64,000 nt of DNA from Olivibacter sp. SDN3 (GTDB taxonomy: Bacteria > Bacteroidota > Bacteroidia > Sphingobacteriales > Sphingobacteriaceae). This document shows, piece after piece, positions 2,506-13,534 of this stretch. The notes beneath the pieces are model-generated. The model was not told where the DNA came from, made no database searches, and was given only the letters and a program-made list of their open reading frames with translations. Location of the stretch: contig NZ_CP060497.1 of NCBI RefSeq assembly GCF_014334135.1, positions 4,650,001 to 4,714,000 of the forward strand, given 5' to 3'. Every line of letters begins with the position of its first letter. Position 1 is the first letter of the stretch. The translations under genes were made by a program, and so were the position numbers.

Positions 2506-3003
2506 CTACCTTCCCAATTCCTTTCTTCGCTCTATTTCAGCTTGCAGACTCGTAAACCATTCTTGATACACCTTTGGTTCATAGATCATCTGCTCTTTAT
2601 TGTCCTTATTCACCTGACCCCAGTAACCATTGCGGCTGGACTCGGCTCCTTCATACATGGTAATCTTTACCTCAGTTAGATTATCGTTAACTCCTTCTAT
2701 ATAGAACATCGCTTTAGAGGTATTGGCATCTTTTGCAGTGCCTAGCCAAAACCGTTGAGAAGCAGCGTTTTTATTTTCAATACGTTTGCTGGCATTGATA
2801 AGGCCGGTTTCTTTATCTGCACGATCTATGATGTAGCTTTCGGATTGGAGCAGACTAATTACGGATTTAAAAACAAGTTCTTGGTCCGACTCAAATTGTT
2901 TGGTGGTCATCATCTTCACTTCGGCGGGCGATTTGGTAACCATCTTGGTAGCACAAGATGTTAACAGTACTACATTACATACGAGTAAAAGTATTCGTTT
3001 CAT
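2506..3003 (-). CDS. Lipoprotein of unknown function
   Basis: The 165-residue product has a lipoprotein signal peptide with lipobox LLTSC at about residues 13-17. The mature part is alternating helix and strand and includes FKSVISLLQSESYIIDRADKETGLINASK, a pattern seen in small outer-membrane assembly or DUF4136-like lipoproteins. No catalytic motif is visible. It is the second gene of a minus-strand pair, 19 bp after a BamE-like lipoprotein gene, so both proteins probably act together at the cell envelope. It was not assigned to a named family. Confidence 0.65.
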   Translation of the reverse strand: MKRILLLVCNVVLLTSCATKMVTKSPAEVKMMTTKQFESDQELVFKSVISLLQSESYIIDRADKETGLINASKRIENKNAASQRFWLGTAKDANTSKAMFYIEGVNDNLTEVKITMYEGAESSRNGYWGQVNKDNKEQMIYEPKVYQEWFTSLQAEIERRKELGR

Positions 3004-3022
3004 ATTTATATATGTTGAAAGG

Positions 3023-3400
3023 TTAATAAGCAGTTGATACTACGGAGTAATCTTCTACGATATCATGTTCATCGAAGGTGATGATGAGATCAAAAGACTT
3101 ACTGGTGCTACTTTGACTGGCACGCTGTCCGGAGAAAAAGTCGGTCGAGCCTGCTTTATGTTCTACAGACATCCGGTTATAACTCCAAACTTCGTTATTC
3201 GATTTGTTTTTGGATACCAAGTTAGGGGCACCAAAGAGTTTCAGGATTTCATCCTGTGAGGTCTGTCCTTTTTTTAACTGGCTTTTCACCACACCTATCG
3301 TGAGATTGCTTTTCTGCGCATTGCCTTCGGTGCCATATTTATAGCTCTTGCAGGCACTTACCGAAAGGATCAAGAGACTTAATAGTAATAGTTTATTCAT
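3023..3400 (-). CDS. SmpA/OmlA (BamE-like) lipoprotein
   Basis: The 125-residue protein starts with a signal peptide and lipobox SVSAC at about residues 13-17. The mature part carries the BamE/SmpA signature: GVVKSQLKKGQTSQDEILKLFGAPNLV, then VWSYNRMS, and a strand ending FDEHDIVEDYSV. Members of this fold are small outer-membrane lipoproteins, in E. coli a component of the BAM complex. Here it heads a two-gene unit with another lipoprotein, away from any bam locus, so a specialised envelope role within the mobile region is more likely than being the housekeeping copy. That is inference. Confidence 0.7.
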   Translation of the reverse strand: MNKLLLLSLLILSVSACKSYKYGTEGNAQKSNLTIGVVKSQLKKGQTSQDEILKLFGAPNLVSKNKSNNEVWSYNRMSVEHKAGSTDFFSGQRASQSSTSKSFDLIITFDEHDIVEDYSVVSTAY

Positions 3401-3545
3401 CTGTTTTTATGTTTGCCAAAAGTATTTAATCCATAAAGACGAGCATTACGGAAACCCGTAAGAGAAGCATCTTTTCGTTGTCTATCTTTAGAACAAAGTA
3501 AAAAACGATTGATGTAGCCTATGTGCACAGTTTCCTATATAGCTA

Positions 3546-3578
3546 TGCACATACACTGCATTGGAAAACGTATCTTCG
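3546..3578 (+). promoter_or_regulatory. Promoter and putative autoregulatory operator of the WYL gene
   Basis: The operator core tgcacatacactgca (3546-3560) has TGCA half-sites separated by 7 bp and occupies the -33 region. The -7-like box tatcttcg lies at 3571-3578, 22 bp before the ATG. The same 15-bp core recurs exactly at 5136-5150. An extra palindrome tgtgcaca sits upstream at 3522-3529. Confidence 0.65.
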
Positions 3579-3600
3579 TATGTATACCAGATAAAACCAT

Positions 3601-4617
3601 ATGGCCACCAATAAACACGCAATTATCCGTTATGAAGCATTGGATCGGTGCTTTTCCAATAAGGGTCGAAAATTTTTCATCGATGATCTAATCGTTTACG
3701 TATCGACAGCCATCGAAGAATATAGTGGTACAAAAGGTTCTATATCACGCAGACAGATCTTCAAAGACATGGATTTCATGCGCAGTGAAGCCGGATTTCG
3801 CGCACCCATCGACTCCTACAAGGAAGGGAAAAAGACCTACTACCGCTATTCGGACAGAAGCTATTCGCTTGCTATGCAACAGATCAATCCCGTCGAAGCC
3901 GATCTTCTGAAAACGACATTGGATATGCTGGGGAGATTTAAAGGGTTGCCACAATTTGACTTTGTCCAAGAGCTGGCCTTGAAATTAAAAAAGAGTTTTC
4001 AGTTGGAAGAGCTGGATGAATGTATATTTTTTGATCAAAACGAATATCTGAAAAATCTACACTTTCTAGGCGATCTGTTAAAAGTTATCCAAGATAAAGG
4101 TGTACTAAGGATACGATATCAGTCATTCAACCAGGATCGGGAAGAAAGTTTTCTGCTTCATCCTTATTTCCTAAAGCAATACAACAAACGCTGGTTCTTA
4201 TTCGGTCAACGTGAAGATTTTGAAAACTGGAGTAGCCTGGCCTTAGACCGAATCATTGATTTTTCAGTTGAGCAGGATGAGGTCTATAAACCAGCAAGTA
4301 CTCATCCAGATGATTATTTTGAAGATCTGATTGGCGTAAGTAAACCTATCGAATTAACCGCTCAACTTGTTCGGATCAAAATCAATAAGAGCCTTTGGCC
4401 TTACATCGACTCTAAGCCACTACACCCCTCTCAAAAGATCTTAGAAAAAAAGGAAGACTACACGATTATACAGCTGGACGTGATTCCAAACTACGAATTT
4501 TATGCGCAGATACTAAGTTTTGGGCAAGCTGTACAGGTGATTGAACCCGAAAGTGTTCGATTCACGATGAAGAAAAAGTTGATTGCTATGTTGGGGAATT
4601 ATTCCACTGAAAACTAG
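3601..4617 (+). CDS. WYL-domain transcriptional regulator (CapW/BrxR-like)
   Basis: This 338-residue protein has an N-terminal winged-helix DNA-binding region (about 1-90, including SISRRQIFKDMDFMRSE). A WYL domain at about 140-235 (LRIRYQSFNQDREESFLLHPYF, then KRWFLFGQRE, with W-F-L replacing the W-Y-L motif) and a C-terminal extension at about 250-335 follow. WYL regulators of this layout control defence operons; CapW for CBASS and BrxR for BREX are described examples that bind palindromic operators as dimers. The gene lies upstream of a CBASS operon and shares a 15-bp operator with it, so autorepression and control of CBASS are both likely. Confidence 0.85.
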   Translation: MATNKHAIIRYEALDRCFSNKGRKFFIDDLIVYVSTAIEEYSGTKGSISRRQIFKDMDFMRSEAGFRAPIDSYKEGKKTYYRYSDRSYSLAMQQINPVEADLLKTTLDMLGRFKGLPQFDFVQELALKLKKSFQLEELDECIFFDQNEYLKNLHFLGDLLKVIQDKGVLRIRYQSFNQDREESFLLHPYFLKQYNKRWFLFGQREDFENWSSLALDRIIDFSVEQDEVYKPASTHPDDYFEDLIGVSKPIELTAQLVRIKINKSLWPYIDSKPLHPSQKILEKKEDYTIIQLDVIPNYEFYAQILSFGQAVQVIEPESVRFTMKKKLIAMLGNYSTEN

Positions 4618-4640
4618 AAGATGTATTTTATAATCTCATT

Positions 4641-5069
4641 ATGATCTCAACCGAACGTAAAAAGCGGGCTAAGAAAACTATTTCATTATGTCCCATTTGT
4701 AACCTAGAAATTAATAAGGACCTTCTTTCTTTTTTTAGTCACCTAAACGATGTCCATTATCCTGGATTTCAATACTTAAATGGGCACTTCATCCATTATC
4801 AAGATGGAAAGTTATTAGACTTAAAAACTCGTAATATTATTGAATCATTTAGCACAAGCCTTTTAATTCACGAGGCGGACAAATACCTGAAACGCAAAAA
4901 AGGTGAGGCGACTTATCAAATTGACAAATGTTCCAGGTGTAAAATCTCTAGATCGTTGTTGGCTAAATATCTTATCGATAAGAAATATGAATTTCTTATT
5001 TGTAAGAGGTGTAAGCGTAGCCTTCTTAAAACTCAAAATCATGTCAGAATCATCTATAATGCAACGTAG
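4641..5069 (+). CDS. Zinc-finger protein of unknown function next to CBASS
   Basis: The 142-residue basic protein has an N-terminal C2H2-like finger (CPICNLEI, then HLNDVH, about residues 17-39) and a C-terminal four-cysteine ribbon (CSRC at about 97-100 and CKRC at about 120-123). Middle residues NGHFIHYQDGKLLDLKT may form a beta-hairpin. It starts 23 bp after the WYL gene and is probably co-transcribed with it, upstream of the operator-controlled CBASS promoter. No family was recognised. It could be a nucleic-acid-binding accessory factor or an unrelated cargo gene. Confidence 0.65.
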   Translation: MISTERKKRAKKTISLCPICNLEINKDLLSFFSHLNDVHYPGFQYLNGHFIHYQDGKLLDLKTRNIIESFSTSLLIHEADKYLKRKKGEATYQIDKCSRCKISRSLLAKYLIDKKYEFLICKRCKRSLLKTQNHVRIIYNAT

Positions 5070-5133
5070 CTAGGCAAACGTTGATTTGGTATTCTAACAT
5101 TATGGTTATATACCTGATCAATCACTTTTTTTG

Positions 5134-5169
5134 TGTGCACATACACTGCACAATATCGATCCATCTTTG
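5134..5169 (+). promoter_or_regulatory. CBASS promoter with WYL-type operator
   Basis: The 15-bp core tgcacatacactgca at 5136-5150 is identical to the one in the WYL promoter. Here the arms extend to a 6-bp inverted repeat tgtgca (5134-5139) and tgcaca (5147-5152). A -7-like box catctttg follows at 5162-5169, 11 bp after the core, against 10 bp at the WYL promoter. A bound regulator would cover the -33 region. The leader before the CD-NTase start at 5226 is about 50 nt. Confidence 0.7.
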
Positions 5170-5225
5170 TCTTAAATAGTTAGCAAAATAATAAGAGAAA
5201 ATATTTTTACTTTACTCATTAAATT

Positions 5226-6284
5226 ATGAATAAAAATTACAATCAATTAGCTGCCAGCATCCAGCAAAGGTCAAATCCAGAAAATTTAGTTTTGGAGAAA
5301 TCTTTTTCCGATGAACTTTCTTCCGTTCAATACAATGACCTATTGAGGTATATAACCTTGGCTATGAATGGAGTGGATCCTGCATATACTGAAAAAAGCA
5401 AACTAGCAGGCGAAAGAGTTAAAAATCATCTTAAAGAAACACTTTCTGATGTTGTTTACAGGTATCAAGGGTCCGTAATGACTAATACTCATATTAAAGG
5501 AACTAGCGATATTGATTTATTGGTCATTACGGATAAGTTCTATACGTTTGATCGTGCCGGTATTGAAAAAGCATTATCCGATTACAACCAAATGATCTAT
5601 CTCAAAGAGTCCCAAATTAATAGTCTAAAAAGTCAGTTGCAAGGTGGGGGTTACGGAACTGATATTGCTCTTCAAGATCTACGGGAAAATCGCCTACATT
5701 CGGAGCATAAACTTAAAGATAAGTATGAGATCTACGATATTACTCGTCCTAAGTCCATTAAGATTACTAATCAACATCTTAAGCGTGACGTAGACATTGT
5801 CATAGCGAACTGGTATGACGACGTAAAATCTGTCATCAATGACAAAAATGATGATTATCGTGGAATTCAGGTCTATAACAAACAATTACATTCAAAAGGT
5901 GATGTCGATTATCCATTTTTAAGTATAAAGCGTATTAATGACCGAAGTGCCGATACACAGGGAAGATTAAAAAAAATGATTCGTCTTCTGAAAAACATTA
6001 AGGCTGATAGCGATAAGGAAATTGAACTAAGCAGCTTTGATTTTAACGCTATTTGCTACGACATTGATATCAGTACCTATAAAGATTTAAATAAATACAT
6101 GCTTGTGGGTGTAGTTCTGAACAAACTTATTAAGCTTGCGACTGACGGACATTCGGCAGATAACTTAACTTCCGTAGATGGGAGAGAGTATATCTTTAGA
6201 AATAATTCCGGAAAATTACAATCCCTAAGGAACTTGATGGGTGAAGTAAGCTTCGTTTTAAATGATTTAAAAACCCAATTATAA
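5226..6284 (+). CDS. CBASS CD-NTase (cyclic dinucleotide synthase, CdnE-like)
   Basis: The 352-residue protein shows the cGAS/DncV-like nucleotidyltransferase core. GS at residues 82-83 is followed by the DxD pair D95/D97 (GTSDIDLLV), and a third acidic residue sits in [10 protein letters not shown] at about 190. A helical SMODS C-terminal lobe completes the fold. It is followed one base later by a TIR-STING effector. In known STING-containing CBASS loci the CdnE-like enzyme makes 3',3'-c-di-GMP after phage infection; the same product is inferred here from the effector. Transcription probably responds to the WYL regulator through the operator at 5134-5152. Confidence 0.9.
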
Positions 6285-6285
6285 G

Positions 6286-7236
6286 ATGAGAAAGAAAAAA
6301 ATATTTATCGGATCTTCAAGCGAAGAGCTCGGCTTAGCAAATGCAGCCAAAACTATTTTGGAATTTGAACAAGACTTTGAAGTGACAATATGGAATGAAG
6401 ATGTATGGGAAAAATCCGTTTTTAAACTTAACAATAATTATTTAAACGACCTGATTAGAGCTACTTTGCAATTTGACTTTGGGATTCTTATCGGCACCAA
6501 GGACGACAAAGTCGAAGTTAGAGGAGACGAATATCTGCAGCCAAGGGATAACATATTATTCGAATTGGGGCTATTTATCGGAAGGTTAGGATTAAATAAC
6601 TGCGCTTTTTTAATTGATAAAGACATCAAGCTTTTATCAGATATTAAAGGTATTTCATTGGCACGTTTTGAAAGAAACAAAATGGATACATTCACCAATG
6701 CGATAAGTCAAATTAAGGATTTATTCAGAAATCAAATCGATTCCGGAATTAACTTTTTCCCCTCTTCGACCCTAGCAGCCGTTTATTATGAAAACTTTGT
6801 AAAACCAACTTGTCTACACATAATCAAAAACAACGGGATCGTAAATGACGATGGGAAAAAATATGAGGATTGTATAATAAAAATCATCATTCCAGAAAAA
6901 TTGACATCTGACGTAAATGGCCAGTTTCAGACGTTGAAAAAGAAGTTTCAAACGAAGAAGCTGACTTTTGATTATTTGGGCAGACCTAGACATATCGATG
7001 TGGAGATCTTGGTTAAAGATGGAAAATTATTTGTTATAGACTTTCCTACGGTTTTGTCTGGAATTAATTATGCAATTTCCAATTTACTGCCGTACGACTT
7101 TAACGCTATGTCCGAGGACTATGAATCTATTTTGAACAGGGAATTTGATAGGTTTGTTTATACGCTGAATAAGCTTGCTCTCCGGGATGGTTACAATAAT
7201 TTAACAACGGTTATCAATGAAAGGGACTTGAAGTAA
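6286..7236 (+). CDS. TIR-STING CBASS effector (Cap12-like NADase)
   Basis: The 316-residue protein fuses an N-terminal TIR-like domain (about 1-145) to a C-terminal bacterial STING domain (about 155-316). The TIR part has [10 protein letters not shown] and [13 protein letters not shown], in which E93 is the likely NAD-hydrolysing glutamate. The STING part shows the family pattern [13 protein letters not shown], then GRPR at 232-235 and IDFPT at 251-255. These correspond to the arginine and aspartate/threonine positions used to read guanine in c-di-GMP by described bacterial STINGs. Binding of the signal is known to drive filament formation and NAD depletion, killing infected cells. No transmembrane segment is present. 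Confidence 0.9.
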
Positions 7237-7379
7237 ATGTTTCAAAACCAATGGTTTGTCAGGTTTTAAAAAATACACAATGAATAGGTATATGTATATG
7301 ACATGTTTGCACGAACAATTTTCCAAGGCATATGAACGGTTGTCTTTGCTTTTAAATCGCATAAAAAGAGCTTTTTCAT

Positions 7380-7387
7380 TATATTTG
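7380..7387 (+). promoter_or_regulatory. Promoter -7 box for the hsdR operon
   Basis: The sequence tatatttg matches TAnnTTTG and lies 32 bp before the hsdR start. No convincing -33 element is visible at the right distance. Its position in the only sizeable gap between CBASS and hsdR makes it the best candidate start of the restriction operon. Confidence 0.5.
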
Positions 7388-7419
7388 GTTGTAATGAACG
7401 TATGAAACCATAATAACGC

Positions 7420-10400
7420 ATGGCCGAAACCAGTTTCCATTTTTTAGAAGAAGAATTCCCGTTGCTATTTAATCTGGCAAAAGCAGCGGAATATAACTTA
7501 TATCAAGATCCAACGACGTCATTATTCAAATTGCGTCAGTATGGGGAATACATGGCCAAGCAGATATTTGATACCTACGGTATGGACTTGCCCGAAGACA
7601 GCAAATTCCAGAACCTGGTGTACCTGCTCCGAAACCAAGGAATATTACCCAGTAATGTCTACGATTATTTTACCATTCTTCGGAAACAAGGAAATGATGC
7701 CGTCCATGAATATAAAGGCACCACTGACGAGGCGACTTCGTCGCTTTTTTCAGCATTCAAACTAGGTAAATGGTTTTACGAATCCTATTCCGTTAAGAAC
7801 AGGAATATTGCGGATATCAAATTCCATAAACCCGAAAACCTCGATGCGCGCCATGCTTTATACCTATTGGAACAAGAAAACAAAGCGCTAAAAGAACAAT
7901 ACGACCAATTAATCTTACAACAGAAAACAGTTAGCCAGGAACAAAGACAGGCCTTTACCGAGCGGGCAAAACGCTCCGCCTCTAAATTAGATATGGACGA
8001 GGCGCAAACGCGCGAACTCATTGATGTCAATTTGCGGAAGATGGGTTGGGAAGCGGATACAAAATTGCTAAACGCTAAAATTCATAAAACCCAACCGGAG
8101 AAAGGCCGTAACATGGCTATTGCCGAATGGCCAGTAAAAGGTGGTTATGCAGATTATGCCCTATTTATCGGTACCAGCCTATATGGCGTGGTCGAGGCAA
8201 AAAAATACGGACAAGACATCTCTACCAACCTGGATCAAAGCAAGCGCTACGCGCTGAACATTATTCCACAGGAAGGGATTGAAATATTGGGAGAATGGCA
8301 AGGTTATAAAGTGCCGTTCCTTTACTCCACCAATGGAAGGGAATACCTCCAACAGATTGCGACGAAAAGTGGTATATGGTATCTCGATGTGCGGGAGACA
8401 TACAACAACTCCAAATCTATCAAAGGATTTCATAGTCCGGATGATCTACGAAAGAAATTCGAACAAGATATAGCCCTGGCTAATAAAAAATTGCAAGCAA
8501 ATTCACTGGACTTTTTACAATCAAAAACAGGCCTTAGTTTACGGGACTATCAAATCAAGGCCATTGAAGCCGTAGAAACTATCGTCATTAATCATCCGGA
8601 AGTGGACCGGGCATTATTGGCCATGGCGACCGGAACTGGTAAAACCCGTACGATTATCGGATTGGCTTATCGTCTCATACAGACCAACCGTTTCAAACGT
8701 ATCTTGTTTTTGGTTGATCGTACCTTATTGGCTAAGCAAGCTTTAGATGGTTTTAAAGATTACAAAGTGGATGATCTAAAGAGCTTCAACGATATCTATC
8801 ACATTGATAACCTTAGAATCTGGTGGCCGGATGTGGACAGCCGAATTCACTTTGCTACGGTACAGAGTATGGTGAAACGACTGTTTTATCATGATGATGA
8901 ACAAAAGTCGCTAAGCATCGATACCTACGACTGCATCATCGTGGATGAGGCGCACCGCGGGTATTTGTTAGACAAAGAAATGGATGACGAAGAGCTGGAT
9001 TTTAAAGATCAGGATGATTACGTTAGTAAGTACCGCCAGGTGTTAGATTATTTCGATGCCTTTGCGATAGGATTAACAGCTACCCCAGCATTGCATACGA
9101 CAGAGATTTTCAATAAGCCCGTATTCAATTATGGATTACGGGAAGCGGTACTGGATGGTTATTTGGTGGACCAGGATCCACCGATCATGATCAAAACCAA
9201 ACTCTCCGAAGAAGGTATTGTATGGGAAAAAGGAGAAAGACCAACGGTATACGACAAAGAAGGAAATCAAATTATTGAATTGGATGAGCTGGATGACGAA
9301 CTTAAATTTGATGTCTCAGGATTCAATAAGCAGGTCATTACCGAGAATTTCAATCGAACCGTACTCCGCGAATTGGTAAATCAACTTGATCCGGATGGCG
9401 AGGCCAAGACATTAATCTTTGCTGCTACCGATGAGCATGCTGATATGATTGTTAAAATTCTTAAGGAAGAGTTCGCTGTAGCTGGTATCCCTATACCAGA
9501 TGATGCGGTGGCGAAGATTACCGGAAAATCGGACCAGCCCGAGGATAAAGTGAAACGGTATAAAAATGAGCAATATCCCAACATCGCTGTTACAGTTGAT
9601 CTATTGACCACTGGTATCGATGTTCCTAAAATATGTAATCTGGTTTTCATGCGCCGTATTCGATCCCGTATCCTGTATGACCAAATGATCGGACGAGCTA
9701 CACGCTTATGTCCGGAGATCCATAAGGAAAGTTTTAAAGTGTTCGACGCAGTCAACCTCTATGAAAGTATTAAGGATTATACAGAAATGAAACCCTTAGT
9801 AGTTAATCCGTCAGCAAACTTTGCAACCTTAAGCAGCGAATTCCGGCACATCCAGACAGACGAACGTGCTGCGCAACAAGTGGATCAGATCATCGCCAAA
9901 CTGCAACGCAAAAAGCGGTCAACAGGTATCGACAACGAGAAGATCAACTATTTCACCGGTGTAGGTTCCTTGGATGAATTCATCCATAGTATACGTGAAA
10001 AAACCTTACCTGAACAGGTCAAATTGCTGACGGACAGCAATGACCTTTGGAAATACCTGGACGAATTCAAGTCGGCTCCCGCAAGACAGTTTTACTCCAA
10101 CCATGAAGATGAGTTGCGTGAAGTAGTTGCCGGTTACGGTACTTCTGATAAACCGGAAGACTATATTGAAGGTTTTAAACAGTTTATTGAAGAAAACCAG
10201 AATAATATTGCATCTCTGAAACTGATTGCTACGGCGCCAACGCAATTAAAGCGTAGCGACCTGAAAGAGTTATTAATCTTGCTGGATACAAAAGGTTATA
10301 CTGTTCGTACATTACGCGAAGCATGGAAATCTACCAAAAAGCAAGATGTAGCGGCCGATATTATTGCCTATATTCGCACGCTTATATTAGGTTCGGAATT

Positions 10401-10665
10401 GGTTAGCAAGGAAGACCGCGTAAGGCAAGCTTTTCAAAAGCTCTACAGTGAACAAAACTGGACGGTACCACAAAAGAACTTGCTGGTTCGTATAGAAGCA
10501 CAGATGATTGCAGAATCCGTGGTCACCGTCGACGATCTGGATAAAGAACCCTTTGTTTCCACTTACGGCGGTTTTAACCGGATCAATCAACGCTTTGACA
10601 ACCATTTGCCGGATATACTGCAAAAGATCAACAGCTATATGTACGGTGGCAACCAAACGGCCTAA
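7420..10665 (+). CDS. hsdR: Type I restriction enzyme, R subunit
   Basis: The 1081-residue protein begins with a DUF4145-like helical domain (about 10-130). A type I nuclease domain follows with the D-ExK motif (GGYADYALF with D245, then VVEAKK with E259 and K261). The SF2 translocase has Walker A MATGTGKTR near 410 and DEAHR near 510. The helicase second domain ends with DLLTTGIDVP and QMIGRATR, and an EcoEI-type C-terminal domain closes the protein. HsdR cuts DNA after translocation once the HsdMS complex meets an unmethylated site. hsdM follows after 86 bp. All key motifs are present, so the subunit looks functional. Confidence 0.95.
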   Translation: MAETSFHFLEEEFPLLFNLAKAAEYNLYQDPTTSLFKLRQYGEYMAKQIFDTYGMDLPEDSKFQNLVYLLRNQGILPSNVYDYFTILRKQGNDAVHEYKGTTDEATSSLFSAFKLGKWFYESYSVKNRNIADIKFHKPENLDARHALYLLEQENKALKEQYDQLILQQKTVSQEQRQAFTERAKRSASKLDMDEAQTRELIDVNLRKMGWEADTKLLNAKIHKTQPEKGRNMAIAEWPVKGGYADYALFIGTSLYGVVEAKKYGQDISTNLDQSKRYALNIIPQEGIEILGEWQGYKVPFLYSTNGREYLQQIATKSGIWYLDVRETYNNSKSIKGFHSPDDLRKKFEQDIALANKKLQANSLDFLQSKTGLSLRDYQIKAIEAVETIVINHPEVDRALLAMATGTGKTRTIIGLAYRLIQTNRFKRILFLVDRTLLAKQALDGFKDYKVDDLKSFNDIYHIDNLRIWWPDVDSRIHFATVQSMVKRLFYHDDEQKSLSIDTYDCIIVDEAHRGYLLDKEMDDEELDFKDQDDYVSKYRQVLDYFDAFAIGLTATPALHTTEIFNKPVFNYGLREAVLDGYLVDQDPPIMIKTKLSEEGIVWEKGERPTVYDKEGNQIIELDELDDELKFDVSGFNKQVITENFNRTVLRELVNQLDPDGEAKTLIFAATDEHADMIVKILKEEFAVAGIPIPDDAVAKITGKSDQPEDKVKRYKNEQYPNIAVTVDLLTTGIDVPKICNLVFMRRIRSRILYDQMIGRATRLCPEIHKESFKVFDAVNLYESIKDYTEMKPLVVNPSANFATLSSEFRHIQTDERAAQQVDQIIAKLQRKKRSTGIDNEKINYFTGVGSLDEFIHSIREKTLPEQVKLLTDSNDLWKYLDEFKSAPARQFYSNHEDELREVVAGYGTSDKPEDYIEGFKQFIEENQNNIASLKLIATAPTQLKRSDLKELLILLDTKGYTVRTLREAWKSTKKQDVAADIIAYIRTLILGSELVSKEDRVRQAFQKLYSEQNWTVPQKNLLVRIEAQMIAESVVTVDDLDKEPFVSTYGGFNRINQRFDNHLPDILQKINSYMYGGNQTA

Positions 10666-10751
10666 TACGAAATAAATAGTAGACTGAAAGTATTCTTTAA
10701 CACAAAATTAGTATCTGAAAAAGAGCCGATTGGCTTATTAACAACAAAATA

Positions 10752-12218
10752 ATGAGCGCAGAAGAAATAGCACAAAAACTCTGGAATCTCTGTAATGTCC
10801 TTCGTGATGACGGAGTAACCTATCACCAATACCTAAATGAACTGACTTATATCCTCTTTCTCAAACTTTCGGAAGTTAAAAACTTCGAACAGGATATTCT
10901 GGAAAAATACCGTTGGAGTAGATTTAAAGCAATTAAAGACAATAAAGAGCTATATGACACCTACCGAGATTTGTTAGCAAACATTTCGGCCGATTCAGAA
11001 AATGCGACGATCAAGGAGATTTATACCAATGCATCGAGCATGCTGCGCAAACCGGTCAACTTGCGTACGCTGGTGACGGCCATTGATAACATTGATTGGT
11101 TCGAAGATACAGAGAAAGATAAGATTGCAACGATCTACGAGGAATTACTGGAGAAAAACGCGAACGAAAAAAAATCCGGTGCCGGTCAATATTTTACACC
11201 TCGGCCTTTAATCAATGTAATGGTTGATTTAATTGTTCCAAAGATTGGTGAACGTTGGAACGACCCTGCAGCGGGTACATTTGGATTTATGATTGCTGCT
11301 GATCATTATCTCAAACAAAAAACGGATGACTATTTTAAACTAAATGACAAAGAACGGGAGTTTCAAAAGTACGAAGCTTTTACGGGCTGTGAATTGGTGC
11401 AGGATGCCCATCGTTTAGCGCTGATGAATGCGAAACTGCATGGTATTGAATCATCGATTGCTATGACGGATACGTTAAGCCAAGATGGTGAGGCTTTCAA
11501 AAATTATGATGGTGTATTGGCGAATCCACCATTTGGCACTAAGAAAGGCGGTGAACGTCCATCGCGTACTGATTTAACTTTTCTAAGCTCCAACAAACAG
11601 CTCAATTTTCTTCAACATATCTACCGCTCACTTAAAAAGGACGGCAAAGCTCGTGCCGCTGTAGTATTGCCGGACAATGTCCTTTTTGAAGATGGGGATG
11701 GTTTGAAGATCCGCCGCGACCTGATGGATAAGTGCAACCTGCATACCATACTGCGCCTGCCCACAGGAATTTTTTACGCAGCTGGTGTCAAGACCAATGT
11801 CCTGTTCTTTACCCGTGGAAAAACAGAAACCGGGAACACCAAAAATGTATGGGTATACGACATGCGGACGAACGCGCCGAACTTTGGCAAGCGTACACCC
11901 TTCACCCGTGCAGCCTTTGCAGATTTTGTGAAAGCTTATACCGGAGGTATTTCCATCGATGAAGTAAAAAATGGCTGGCAAGGTGATATCGATGAAGCCA
12001 AACGTGCTGAAATAGCAAAAGAAGATCATCGCTGGCAAATATTCTCCCGTGAGGCGATTGCAGCTAAAGGAGATTGGCTGGATATTGGACTAATAGCCGA
12101 TAGTTCATTAAGCAATGGTGACGATCTCGGCGAGCCGATTGACATCGCTCGTGAAGCGTTAGTAGAACTGGATGCCATTACAAAAGAGTTGAACGATTTG
12201 ATAAAGGAGTTGAGCTAA
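10752..12218 (+). CDS. hsdM: Type I restriction-modification DNA methyltransferase, M subunit
   Basis: This 488-residue N6-adenine methyltransferase has the helical HsdM N-terminal domain (about 1-135), AGQYFTPRPL, the SAM-binding motif I DPAAGTFGF near 175 and catalytic motif IV NPPFGT near 256. It modifies adenines at the site chosen by HsdS and forms the HsdM2S methylase. Its TAA shares one base with the hsdS ATG at 12218, so the two are translationally coupled. All motifs are intact. Confidence 0.95.
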   Translation: MSAEEIAQKLWNLCNVLRDDGVTYHQYLNELTYILFLKLSEVKNFEQDILEKYRWSRFKAIKDNKELYDTYRDLLANISADSENATIKEIYTNASSMLRKPVNLRTLVTAIDNIDWFEDTEKDKIATIYEELLEKNANEKKSGAGQYFTPRPLINVMVDLIVPKIGERWNDPAAGTFGFMIAADHYLKQKTDDYFKLNDKEREFQKYEAFTGCELVQDAHRLALMNAKLHGIESSIAMTDTLSQDGEAFKNYDGVLANPPFGTKKGGERPSRTDLTFLSSNKQLNFLQHIYRSLKKDGKARAAVVLPDNVLFEDGDGLKIRRDLMDKCNLHTILRLPTGIFYAAGVKTNVLFFTRGKTETGNTKNVWVYDMRTNAPNFGKRTPFTRAAFADFVKAYTGGISIDEVKNGWQGDIDEAKRAEIAKEDHRWQIFSREAIAAKGDWLDIGLIADSSLSNGDDLGEPIDIAREALVELDAITKELNDLIKELS

Positions 12219-13534
12219 TGGAAAAGGTATTGCCAAAGGGATGGGTTGAAACGGAATTATTAAACTTACTACAAACTCTTGAAACTGGAATTAGACCTAA
12301 AGGTGGTGTTCAGGGAATTTTGGAAGGTGTTCCAAGCATAGGTGGAGAACATTTAACGTCCGACGGAGGCTTTAATTTCAAGAATATTAAATACGTTCCT
12401 AAAGAATTTGCTGAAAAGTTGTTAAGAGGAAGGATTTTACATAATGATGTATTGATAGTAAAGGATGGTGCCACCACAGGCAAAACATCCTTTGTTGGCA
12501 TAAACTTTCCATTTGATACAGCATTTGTAAATGAACATGTTTTTATTTGTAGGCCTTACAAAGAAATTAATCCTAAAGTAGTCTATTATTTTATGAGAAG
12601 TAAGGATGGACAAGAAAGGATAATGGTGAACTTTGCAGGTGCAGCTCAAGGAGGAATTAATACGAAGTTTGCTTCCAATACATTAATACCTCTCCCTCCA
12701 CTCCCCGAACAAGAACGCATGGTCGCTAAACTTGATAAACTCTTTGCACAGCATGAGAAAATAAAAAAAGCCCTCGACCGCATTCCACAATTGCTTAAAG
12801 CGTTCCGTCAGCAGGTTTTGACGCAGGCTGTGGAAAACAAAAAAGGTACAACAAAACTAAAGGAGTTTCTAATTGATATAAAATACGGCACATCTAAAAA
12901 ATCGGAGTATGGCATTAGTGGAACTCCAATATTAAGGATACCTAATATAGAAAATGGAGGGATAAATGATAAAGATTTAAAATATTCTGTATTGGACGAA
13001 AAGGAATATAACACACTTAGGTTACGGGAAAACGATATATTGATAATCAGATCAAATGGAAGTGTGTCGCTTGTCGGTCAGAGCGCTATCATATCTAGTA
13101 AGCATGAAAATTACTCGTATGCAGGTTATTTAATTCGTATTAGACTTAATGAAAATTATGACGCAGGATATTTAAACTATATCTTCAAATCAAATTTCAT
13201 TAGAAGTCAAATGATCGACACATCTCGTTCTACCAGCGGTGTTAATAACATTAATAGTAAGGAGATCCAAGAACTCGATATTCCAGATTTAGAAGTTAGT
13301 GAACAACAAGAAATCGTCCGTCGTGTAGAAAGCCTATTTGCCAAAGCCGATACTATCGAAGCTCGCTACCAGAAACTCAAAGAAAAAGTTGACAACTTAC
13401 CCCAAGTCATCTTGCACAAAGCTTTCAGAGGTGAGTTGGTTCCGCAACTTCCTACGGATGGTGATGCTAAGGATCTATTGCAAGAGATTTTAGCACTGAA
13501 GAAAGAGTCTAAAGGAAAGCGAGGTAAAGCGTGA
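12218..13534 (+). CDS. hsdS: Type I restriction specificity subunit
   Basis: The 438-residue protein has two target-recognition domains (about 8-170 and 215-370), each followed by a helical spacer. The first spacer begins LPPLPEQERMVAKLDKLFAQ and the second SEQQEIVRRVESLFAKAD. The two spacers are the central and distal conserved repeats that set the distance between half-sites. The C-terminal LHKAFRGELVPQLP is typical of HsdS. The sequence recognised cannot be read from the protein. The TGA overlaps the GTG start of the next gene by 4 bp, which links the restriction operon to the Septu-like pair. Confidence 0.93.
   Translation: MEKVLPKGWVETELLNLLQTLETGIRPKGGVQGILEGVPSIGGEHLTSDGGFNFKNIKYVPKEFAEKLLRGRILHNDVLIVKDGATTGKTSFVGINFPFDTAFVNEHVFICRPYKEINPKVVYYFMRSKDGQERIMVNFAGAAQGGINTKFASNTLIPLPPLPEQERMVAKLDKLFAQHEKIKKALDRIPQLLKAFRQQVLTQAVENKKGTTKLKEFLIDIKYGTSKKSEYGISGTPILRIPNIENGGINDKDLKYSVLDEKEYNTLRLRENDILIIRSNGSVSLVGQSAIISSKHENYSYAGYLIRIRLNENYDAGYLNYIFKSNFIRSQMIDTSRSTSGVNNINSKEIQELDIPDLEVSEQQEIVRRVESLFAKADTIEARYQKLKEKVDNLPQVILHKAFRGELVPQLPTDGDAKDLLQEILALKKESKGKRGKA

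Follow-up and report, generated by a model that had tools for sequence, protein, structure and literature searches.

In the genome of Olivibacter sp. SDN3 (6,118,654 bp, one contig), we analysed a 64,000-nt stretch, hereafter the window (G000:C1:4650001-4714000), which contains a defence island at 2506-13534. The island comprises two divergent lipoprotein-like genes, a gene for a WYL-domain regulator, a gene for a 142-aa protein, the CD-NTase and TIR-STING genes of a cyclic oligonucleotide-based antiphage signalling system (CBASS), and hsdR/hsdM/hsdS. Our main finding, read from sequence, is a candidate shared-operator regulon in which one WYL protein would act through one site at three island promoters; we give this reading a probability of about 0.8, a figure for the regulon and not for the sign of control. 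What we observed is that the sites are present and conserved, go with the WYL gene and share a geometry, and that cargo genes are exchanged behind them; from this we infer binding, dimerisation, a ligand and a direction. In the proposed mechanism, a WYL dimer would bind a 15-bp quasi-palindrome covering the -33 region of the WYL promoter, of the divergent lipoprotein promoter and of the promoter of an exchangeable defence cargo (here CD-NTase/TIR-STING), and, once bound, would tie together the expression of the regulator, the lipoproteins and the cargo. The WYL domain would sense a signal, upon which all three promoters would change together; the analogy with CapW, DriD and PafBC makes single-stranded DNA (ssDNA) from damage or phage infection the most plausible one.

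An earlier note on this DNA had described an exact 15-mer, TGCACATACACTGCA, shared by the WYL gene and the CBASS operon, and both copies are present on the plus strand (Table 1). As that note also stated, each copy is an inverted repeat with a 7-bp spacer (TGCA-N7-TGCA), followed 10 bp (WYL) or 11 bp (CBASS) later by a -7-like box; the arms measure 5 bp at the WYL site (ATGCA/TGCAT) and 6 bp at the CBASS site (TGTGCA/TGCACA). The promoter consensus in Bacteroidota is TTTG / TAnnTTTG. Where the note counted two operators there are three, since it missed a weaker inverted copy before the divergent 125-aa gene, which forms with operator 1 an inverted pair 33 bp apart. The window holds five places with at most three mismatches, against 1.35 expected, and 0/100 shuffles reached five. 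WYL and CBASS lie on the same strand behind separate putative promoters, and the CBASS site ends 11 bp before a -7-like box predicted from sequence, so it does not overlap -10/-7.

Table 1. Putative operators, promoter boxes and genes of the island, in window coordinates (HTH, helix-turn-helix).
Feature	Position	Strand	Remarks
Operator 1 (self), TGCACATACACTGCA	3546..3560	+	10 bp upstream of the WYL -7-like box
-7-like box, WYL promoter, TATCTTCG	3571..3578	+	5/6 consensus positions, at 10 bp
Operator 2 (divergent), TGCACATAGGCTACA on the minus strand	3513..3527	-	inverted, 3 mismatches to the 15-mer; faces the lipoprotein gene
-7-like box, divergent lipoprotein promoter, TTACTTTG	3494..3501	-	5/6 positions, at 11 bp
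Operator 3 (cargo), TGCACATACACTGCA	5136..5150	+	11 bp upstream of the CBASS -7-like box
-7-like box, CBASS promoter, CATCTTTG	5162..5169	+	5/6 consensus positions
WYL regulator, 338 aa	3601..4617	+	PF13280 (E 2e-10), PF25583 (E 4e-8); low-confidence structure model
Domains of the WYL protein			predicted winged HTH residues ~1-83, helical linker, WYL 156-220, WCX 255-330
142-aa protein	4641..5069	+	paired CxxC motifs, zinc-ribbon-like by eye; between WYL and CBASS
CD-NTase (CBASS cyclase), 352 aa	5226..6284	+	PADLOC Cyclase E 3e-146; PF01909
TIR-STING effector (Cap12), 316 aa	6286..7236	+	PF20300, PF10137; NF050171 494 bits (cut-off 450)
Divergent 125-aa protein	3023..3400	-	lipoprotein-like signal by eye; downstream of operator 2
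165-aa protein	2506..3003	-	lipoprotein-like by eye
HsdR, type I restriction	7420..10665	+	Pfam, PADLOC
HsdM	10752..12218	+	
HsdS	12218..13534	+	

The site recurs at every locus found with a close relative of the regulator. When 399 family genomes were searched with the WYL protein, 232 gave some match and 12 contained close homologues (64-92% identity), which make up 13 loci including the window; we examined the 12 other close loci and 24 more distant ones (36). The close set, which with the window comprises 13 loci, is related by descent and includes the near-duplicates L100/L102 and L105/L106. A cargo-promoter site is present in 13/13 close loci, usually directly 3′ of the WYL gene, and the self/divergent inverted pair precedes the WYL gene in 11/13, its two sites always 33 bp apart. 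The consensus of the 15-bp site across these loci is TGCACATannnTGCA, usually inside the 19-bp motif TRTGCACATNNNNTGCAYA. In the upstream regions of nine of the 12 other close loci, aligned to the window, the operator columns are 67-93% identical to it, while the remaining columns are 45-51% identical in eight loci and 80% in the congener Olivibacter sp. XZL3.

The sole other close WYL/CD-NTase/STING locus that we found is that of Sphingobacterium sp. xlx-96. It has the same WYL-CBASS-restriction order, with identities to the window of 72% for WYL, 83% for CD-NTase, 87% for STING, 83% for HsdR, 89% for HsdM and 48% for the 142-aa protein, and it keeps both operators (TGCACATACAATACA and TGCACATAGAGTGCA), with a -7-like box after each; the intergenic DNA around them is unrelated. 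The repeat thus recurs in the one homologous WYL-STING locus found, as the reading of the earlier note requires; among relatives, the site follows the WYL gene and not CBASS. Identical 15-mers 1.6 kb apart could stem from one local copying event, and the related loci share ancestry, so a chance repeat or a recent duplication of a promoter fragment, with no role for the WYL protein, was weighed. The two copies, however, have different flanks outside the 15-mer, another genus has retained both although its intergenic DNA is unrelated, and presence of the site tracks the WYL gene; this explanation is largely refuted and we regard it as highly improbable.

What stands behind the cargo site differs from locus to locus. 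CBASS is the cargo in 2/13 close loci and DUF1508, which we take to be the YegP domain, in five (L098, L103, L104, L105, L106), where it is followed by SIR2 (L098), by DUF2971 (L103) or otherwise by small proteins without a known family. Elsewhere the cargo is DUF2971 together with a protein that by eye has a signal peptide (L097), 219- and 221-aa proteins of no known family (L099, L100 and, judged by length, L102), a small protein that contains cysteines by eye (L101) or an outer-membrane barrel (L096). Behind the cargo stands one of two distinct type I restriction sets, 82-91% or 25-31% identical to that of the window. In XZL3, whose WYL protein is 92% identical, we found no CBASS match; WYL and cargo are set apart by another module, which includes a SIR2 gene, and the operator has stayed with an outer-membrane/HsdM operon 5.9 kb away. 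Because the cargo differs behind the site and the XZL3 site stays with its displaced cargo operon, the operator accompanies both the regulator and the cargo, of whatever kind, that the regulator would control. The link that the earlier note drew from the WYL protein to itself and CBASS therefore stands in part: the sites lie at promoters, are kept across genera while their surroundings diverged, and track WYL, but CBASS is one of several cargoes. Two SIR2-like genes (PADLOC Aga_SIR2/SIR2; L096 11289-12548 and L098 5513-6767) are island neighbours or cargo, that of L098 seemingly split in two frames. The WYL frame of L104 (G475, S. endophyticum) has an in-frame stop; its operators and cargo remain.

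The placement of the site relative to the promoter is nearly constant. We scored -7-like boxes 3-25 bp from 37 sites, namely those of the 13 close loci, window included, and of a second operator pair in L097. The best box lies at 11 bp in 35/37 sites and at 10 bp in the other two, which are the Olivibacter self sites (a box elsewhere ties in 6/37), and matches 4/6 consensus positions in 2 sites, 5/6 in 24 and 6/6 in 11; among divergent sites it lies at 11 bp in 11/11. In a non-redundant set (37/41 rows), to which L107 and L108 also contribute, boxes at 11 bp score on average 4.6 for self, 4.9 for divergent and 5.2 for cargo sites, compared with 0.8-3.6 at other distances. In addition, the asymmetric half is always upstream, with [CT][AG]T at positions 5-7 in 37/37.

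More distant WYL genes carry related sites. Ten of the 24 (39-42% identity), termed group B, have TGCA-N7-TGCA 50-59 bp before the ATG, which by eye reads as that motif turned around; the box is 10-12 bp away in 9/10. Six others (35-37%), the most distant group, have a GCG variant, 17 bp from the box in 5/6. These palindromes before the gene's own ATG (L110-L115, L117-L120, L123, L125-L129) offer a ready series for the study of regulator/operator co-evolution. Because group B reads reversed by eye at about the same spacing, the asymmetry would belong to the protein site. A -33 element as its cause is weakened, since group B seems reversed at similar spacing and a -33 TTG is rare elsewhere: a TTG 18-22 bp before the -7 box occurs in 0/35 operator promoters, in 17/94 other TAnnTTTG promoters and in 12% of shuffles. 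The missing TTG itself says little, because other promoters here rarely have one.

We assessed linkage to the WYL gene in two ways. The non-circular test took only the 15-mer of the window and compared it with two stretches per locus, the 130 bp upstream of the WYL gene and ~200 bp that span and follow its stop codon, with 300 shuffles per stretch. Upstream of WYL, 10/12 other loci match on the plus strand with 1-3 mismatches (p <=0.010), and the same 10 match on the minus strand with 2-4 (p up to 0.04); the two loci with 64% WYL identity have 6-8 on the plus and 7-8 on the minus strand. The cargo stretch matches at 2-4 mismatches in 9/12 loci (p up to 0.02) and does not match in three (5-7 mismatches), because in these the site is further off (XZL3 and S. 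tabacisoli, as in the window) or the early WYL stop misplaced the stretch (S. endophyticum); direct examination showed the cargo sites of all three. In the second analysis, TRTGCACATNNNNTGCAYA is present in 25/399 genomes, 11/12 with a close WYL and 14/387 without (p 6e-14). Ten of the 11 have it inside the WYL island and one (G638) only outside, and 16/32 motif places fall in ~0.18 Mb of WYL islands, the other 16 in ~2 Gb.

Several observations weigh against the regulon. The enrichment of the 19-bp motif is partly circular and not independent evidence, because the pattern was written after seeing these loci, and its reversed control (0/399 genomes) is lenient, as it differs in dinucleotides. 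Sixteen motif places lie elsewhere in the family, some of them intergenic, with no close WYL in reach; neither the WYL protein nor any of seven other proteins tested is encoded in the 3-kb stretches at these places, one of which (G686) lies 12 kb from a distant WYL gene. No site was found before the two 64% WYL genes themselves (L105, L106) or upstream of WYL in the distant loci L107, L108, L109, L116, L121 and L130, of which L107 and L108 have one before HsdR. Finally, some operator pairs lack the lipoprotein gene: we found no copy in L104, and at the intact WYL gene of L097 the divergent site has other neighbours.

Searched across the Olivibacter genome, TGCACATACACTGCA has two exact copies only, with two further places at 1 mismatch and thirteen at 2 (17 places, compared with 6 for the reversed pattern). 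We inspected 4 of the 15 inexact matches in context; two lie inside long reading frames and a third inside a 60-aa frame before a long gene, with poor spacing, and we rejected these three as regulon members. The composite pattern TGNACATANNNTGCA, with a -7-like box 9-11 bp on, has three genome matches (reversed control, 0): the WYL site, the CBASS site and one directly before a sulfatase gene (PF00884; site at G000:C1:3297284-3297316, L063 from 7285). This site, 1.36 Mb away, is well spaced, and just 10 nt separate its box from the ATG; relatives of the sulfatase in the other 4 genomes of the genus are <=51% identical. The sulfatase match and the sixteen motif places without a close WYL would fit a site that belongs to another, unlinked regulator, with WYL and CBASS both among its targets. 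Motif presence, however, follows WYL across the 399 genomes, and distant WYL genes carry palindrome variants at the same place, so we consider this alternative improbable.

The CBASS itself is of type I with a TIR-STING (Cap12) effector, as the CD-NTase adjoins TIR-STING and the scanned neighbours (WYL, 142-aa protein, hsdRMS) include no adjoining Cap2/Cap3 or HORMA/TRIP13 genes; the effector is close to the solved bacterial STING 8hy9 (E 1e-87). As a negative control, we collected 26 other STING loci from class and family searches, 16 of them with a CD-NTase match, and scored up to 300 bp upstream of the CD-NTase (only ~45 bp in one locus). The 15 without a close WYL score 7-8/12, compared with 11/12 in xlx-96, and have no operator upstream of the CD-NTase; shuffled 220-bp WYL upstream stretches score 7 or 8 in 3112/3700. 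A dedicated STING regulator was rejected: the 26 loci held one close WYL (and one more at 28%), and 11/13 close WYL loci stand beside other cargo. Because CBASS is just one of several cargoes behind the operator, the WYL protein is not dedicated to STING-type CBASS.

The WYL protein is a winged HTH-WYL-WCX protein, with Pfam matches for WYL and WCX and a winged HTH predicted at a pLDDT (predicted local distance difference test) of ~80. The earlier note pointed to CapW-type regulators of CBASS loci, but membership of that type does not hold for this protein: similarity to CapW beyond the WYL domain is not significant (hmmsearch with a 10-sequence profile, 7tb5 E 0.42 and 7tb6 E 1.8), the gene is not divergent from CBASS, and the site is not over -10/-7. 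In addition, a single-sequence search found no Protein Data Bank match at E 0.001, and no BrxR chain is among the 14 profile matches up to E 10. The structure model, built on 10 sequences (the window and 9 of 11 named loci; L166 and L167 omitted), is weak, with a pLDDT of 57 overall and <40 for residues 91-150; within the ~72 residues between the winged HTH and the Pfam WYL match, helices 97-109, 117-131 and 146-164 are predicted, largely in that low-confidence stretch. In Foldseek, PafBC (6e-14) and DriD (2e-13) have the best E values, ahead of CapW (7e-8) and BrxR (6e-7), while structural re-alignment does not separate BrxR, DriD, CapW and PafBC (best Z 11.4, 10.9, 10.7 and 10.4; root-mean-square deviation 10-23 Å over 158-237 residues). 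Since all WYL families tie, fold comparison does not decide the sign of control.

We compared the island with characterised systems, drawing on the available parts of the cited texts. CapW represses CBASS and itself from sites that overlap -10 (PMC9122588), and 40/160 CapW loci are of type I (PMC9122588). Both cases have a winged HTH-WYL-WCX regulator adjoining CBASS, a quasi-palindrome in the CBASS promoter and self-control, predicted here; whereas CapW is divergent from CBASS, with one common promoter region and its site over -10, the window has both on the same strand, separate promoters, a site over -33, a TIR-STING effector and no significant sequence similarity. BrxR represses its own promoter and proposedly a second one, via R-BOX1 and a putative R-BOX2, with R-BOX1 behind -10 (PMC9122601), and Acinetobacter BrxR, a proposed repressor, covers -51 to -27 and overlaps -35 (PMC9122589). 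Operators at the own and, putatively, at a second island promoter are a trait of this family, which is tied to mosaic defence islands, and are present here at the level of sites, the Acinetobacter site over -35 being a further likeness. BrxR half-sites are longer (10-11 bp, with a 5-bp spacer), and the window differs by a third operator at a divergent lipoprotein promoter, a near-constant distance from site to -7, and tracked cargo exchange behind a conserved operator.

The placement of the sites resembles that of DriD, whose sites overlap -35 at a constant distance from -10 on promoters with a poor -35 (PMC12340889, a preprint). Specifically, 37/37 close sites lie over -33/-35 at 10-11 bp from the box (6 tied), several promoters are involved, a bidirectional promoter stands at the regulator gene in both cases, and the linkers are of comparable length. 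Unlike the island, DriD targets are DNA repair and cell-death genes, and in the available part of the preprint DriD, encoded at a bidirectional promoter, was not found to activate its own gene (PMC12340889). Another WYL activator, PafBC, acts through sigma adaptation (PMC11804915). Many defence systems are under WYL regulators (PMC9122601; PMC13373217), and CapW/BrxR are stated to sense ssDNA (PMC13373217). Beyond this family, CapK+CapS resembles the island as a controller whose links extend to diverse immune operons, including yegP, to which we relate the DUF1508 cargo above, but consists of unrelated proteins, a kinase and a STAS-winged HTH repressor (PMC13373217). RptR is a self-repressing regulator with a conserved site linked to type I restriction islands; it is not WYL, and its site has three short direct repeats, two of them over -10 (PMC12255303).

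The direction of control can be read in two ways. In the manner of CapW/BrxR, a WYL dimer would keep RNA polymerase off the three promoters, and a ligand would lift the block. Two points counted for repression: the core promoter contains the site, and TIR-STING cargo is self-toxic by family. Both CapW (PMC9122588) and BrxR (PMC9122601) are precedents. On the other hand, CapW sites overlap -10 and R-BOX1 lies behind it, whereas no site here touches the -7 box, and occlusion alone leaves the near-fixed spacing unexplained unless a -33 element is embedded in the site, which the orientation of group B argues against. Such release from repression has, in our judgement, about an even chance. The earlier note had inferred that the protein represses; by analogy, the spacing would also fit the WYL activator DriD.

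In the manner of DriD/PafBC, a ligand-bound WYL dimer would instead straddle -33 and recruit RNA polymerase to promoters without a good -33 element, and DNA damage would then turn on the STING operon, which would stay silent if the WYL protein were absent. The 10-11 bp to the -7 box are kept in all 37 sites across three promoter types with dissimilar spacers and cargo, no TTG precedes the box at 18-22 bp in the 35 operator promoters, and both the site placement and the bidirectional promoter are like those of driD (PMC12340889, preprint). The model adds that the ~72-residue linker may be nearer to DriD (linker and bundle residues 71-133; PMC12340889, preprint) than to BrxR (loop 95-119), and Foldseek lists PafBC and DriD before CapW and BrxR. 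Against this stand the tie between the four families on re-alignment of a weak model, the scarcity of a TTG at that distance in other promoters and shuffles alike, the 17 bp of the most distant homologue group, the Acinetobacter BrxR footprint (PMC9122589) and the preprint's result for DriD and its own gene (PMC12340889). We hold activation to be somewhat short of even odds, and lean slightly to repression of the core promoters, released on signal. The split is this close because the spacing is DriD-like, yet Acinetobacter BrxR over -35 is a proposed repressor, the aligners tie, the model is poor and the missing TTG says little.

Around these sites, the 165-aa and 125-aa lipoprotein-like genes are probably co-transcribed. 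The 125-aa gene is found in the window and eight other close loci (77-98% identical), while a ninth stretch ends in a partial copy, and was not found in L104, L105 or L106. In Parapedobacter L097 it adjoins the second operator pair beside a decayed WYL start: in the first 0.6 kb of this locus, oriented by WYL, the pair precedes what is left of a WYL gene, ended by a stop after 10 codons, and then comes a gene for a KAP-type P-loop NTPase. Between the lipoprotein start and its promoter lies another palindrome, TTACGG-N4-CCGTAA (window 3446-3461). All ten aligned regions upstream of WYL keep it, at least as TTACG...CCGTA, and it is present at four places in the genome; it may be a second operator or a leader hairpin.

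A Pfam scan of the 142-aa protein gave no family above cut-off; among the loci read, a clear homologue occurs only in the other CBASS-bearing island, at a different position, after STING. No operator lies directly upstream of hsdR in the window. On the 5′ side of the island (191-2353), genes for an HTH_17 protein, 255-aa and 221-aa proteins and a SymE-like protein partly recur in Olivibacter sp. XZL3, where SymE is 94% identical and the other open reading frames match in length; the set looks like a mobile-element scaffold. At 2459-2477, 3′ of the SymE-like gene, TGTTCAGCAAAACTGAACA followed by a T run, with similar hairpins in L096, L098, L100 and L102, looks like a terminator and not an operator. 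Beyond the family search, no further close WYL turned up in 93 genomes of the genus to which xlx-96 belongs; viral contigs gave no relative of the WYL or STING protein, and plasmids only WYL homologues below 60% identity (best 43%) and no match to the 142-aa protein.

The earlier note presented the matched operators as a new case, which needs dividing: WYL operators at two island promoters are known already from the repressor BrxR, the second being putative (PMC9122601, available part), and the setting in a STING locus is new as far as we found, as our search of the open-licence literature found no paper on WYL or other transcriptional control of bacterial STING-type CBASS. Within the same search, four features are new: a WYL gene beside a TIR-STING CBASS has operators; a third of these stands at the divergent lipoprotein promoter; the sites keep a near-constant position over -33; and in Olivibacter, Sphingobacterium and Parapedobacter, cargo is exchanged behind an operator that is itself conserved.

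Occurring in relatives before quite different genes, the same site suggests, as a pattern in sequence, a reusable switch for interchangeable immune cargo. A bolder proposal, which we hold only tentatively and think more probably wrong than right, is that a DriD-like WYL activator governs a plug-in defence island of Bacteroidota, with the fixed operator/-7 module as the docking place for such cargo; acquired STING-CBASS, SIR2 or restriction genes would then share one damage-triggered switch with the envelope lipoproteins expressed from the divergent operator. If the regulon is real, a 15-bp site would predict the regulator's targets across genera, defence cargo would be swapped behind a constant switch, and whatever stands behind the site would be marked by a cheap sequence handle for uncharacterised defence genes.

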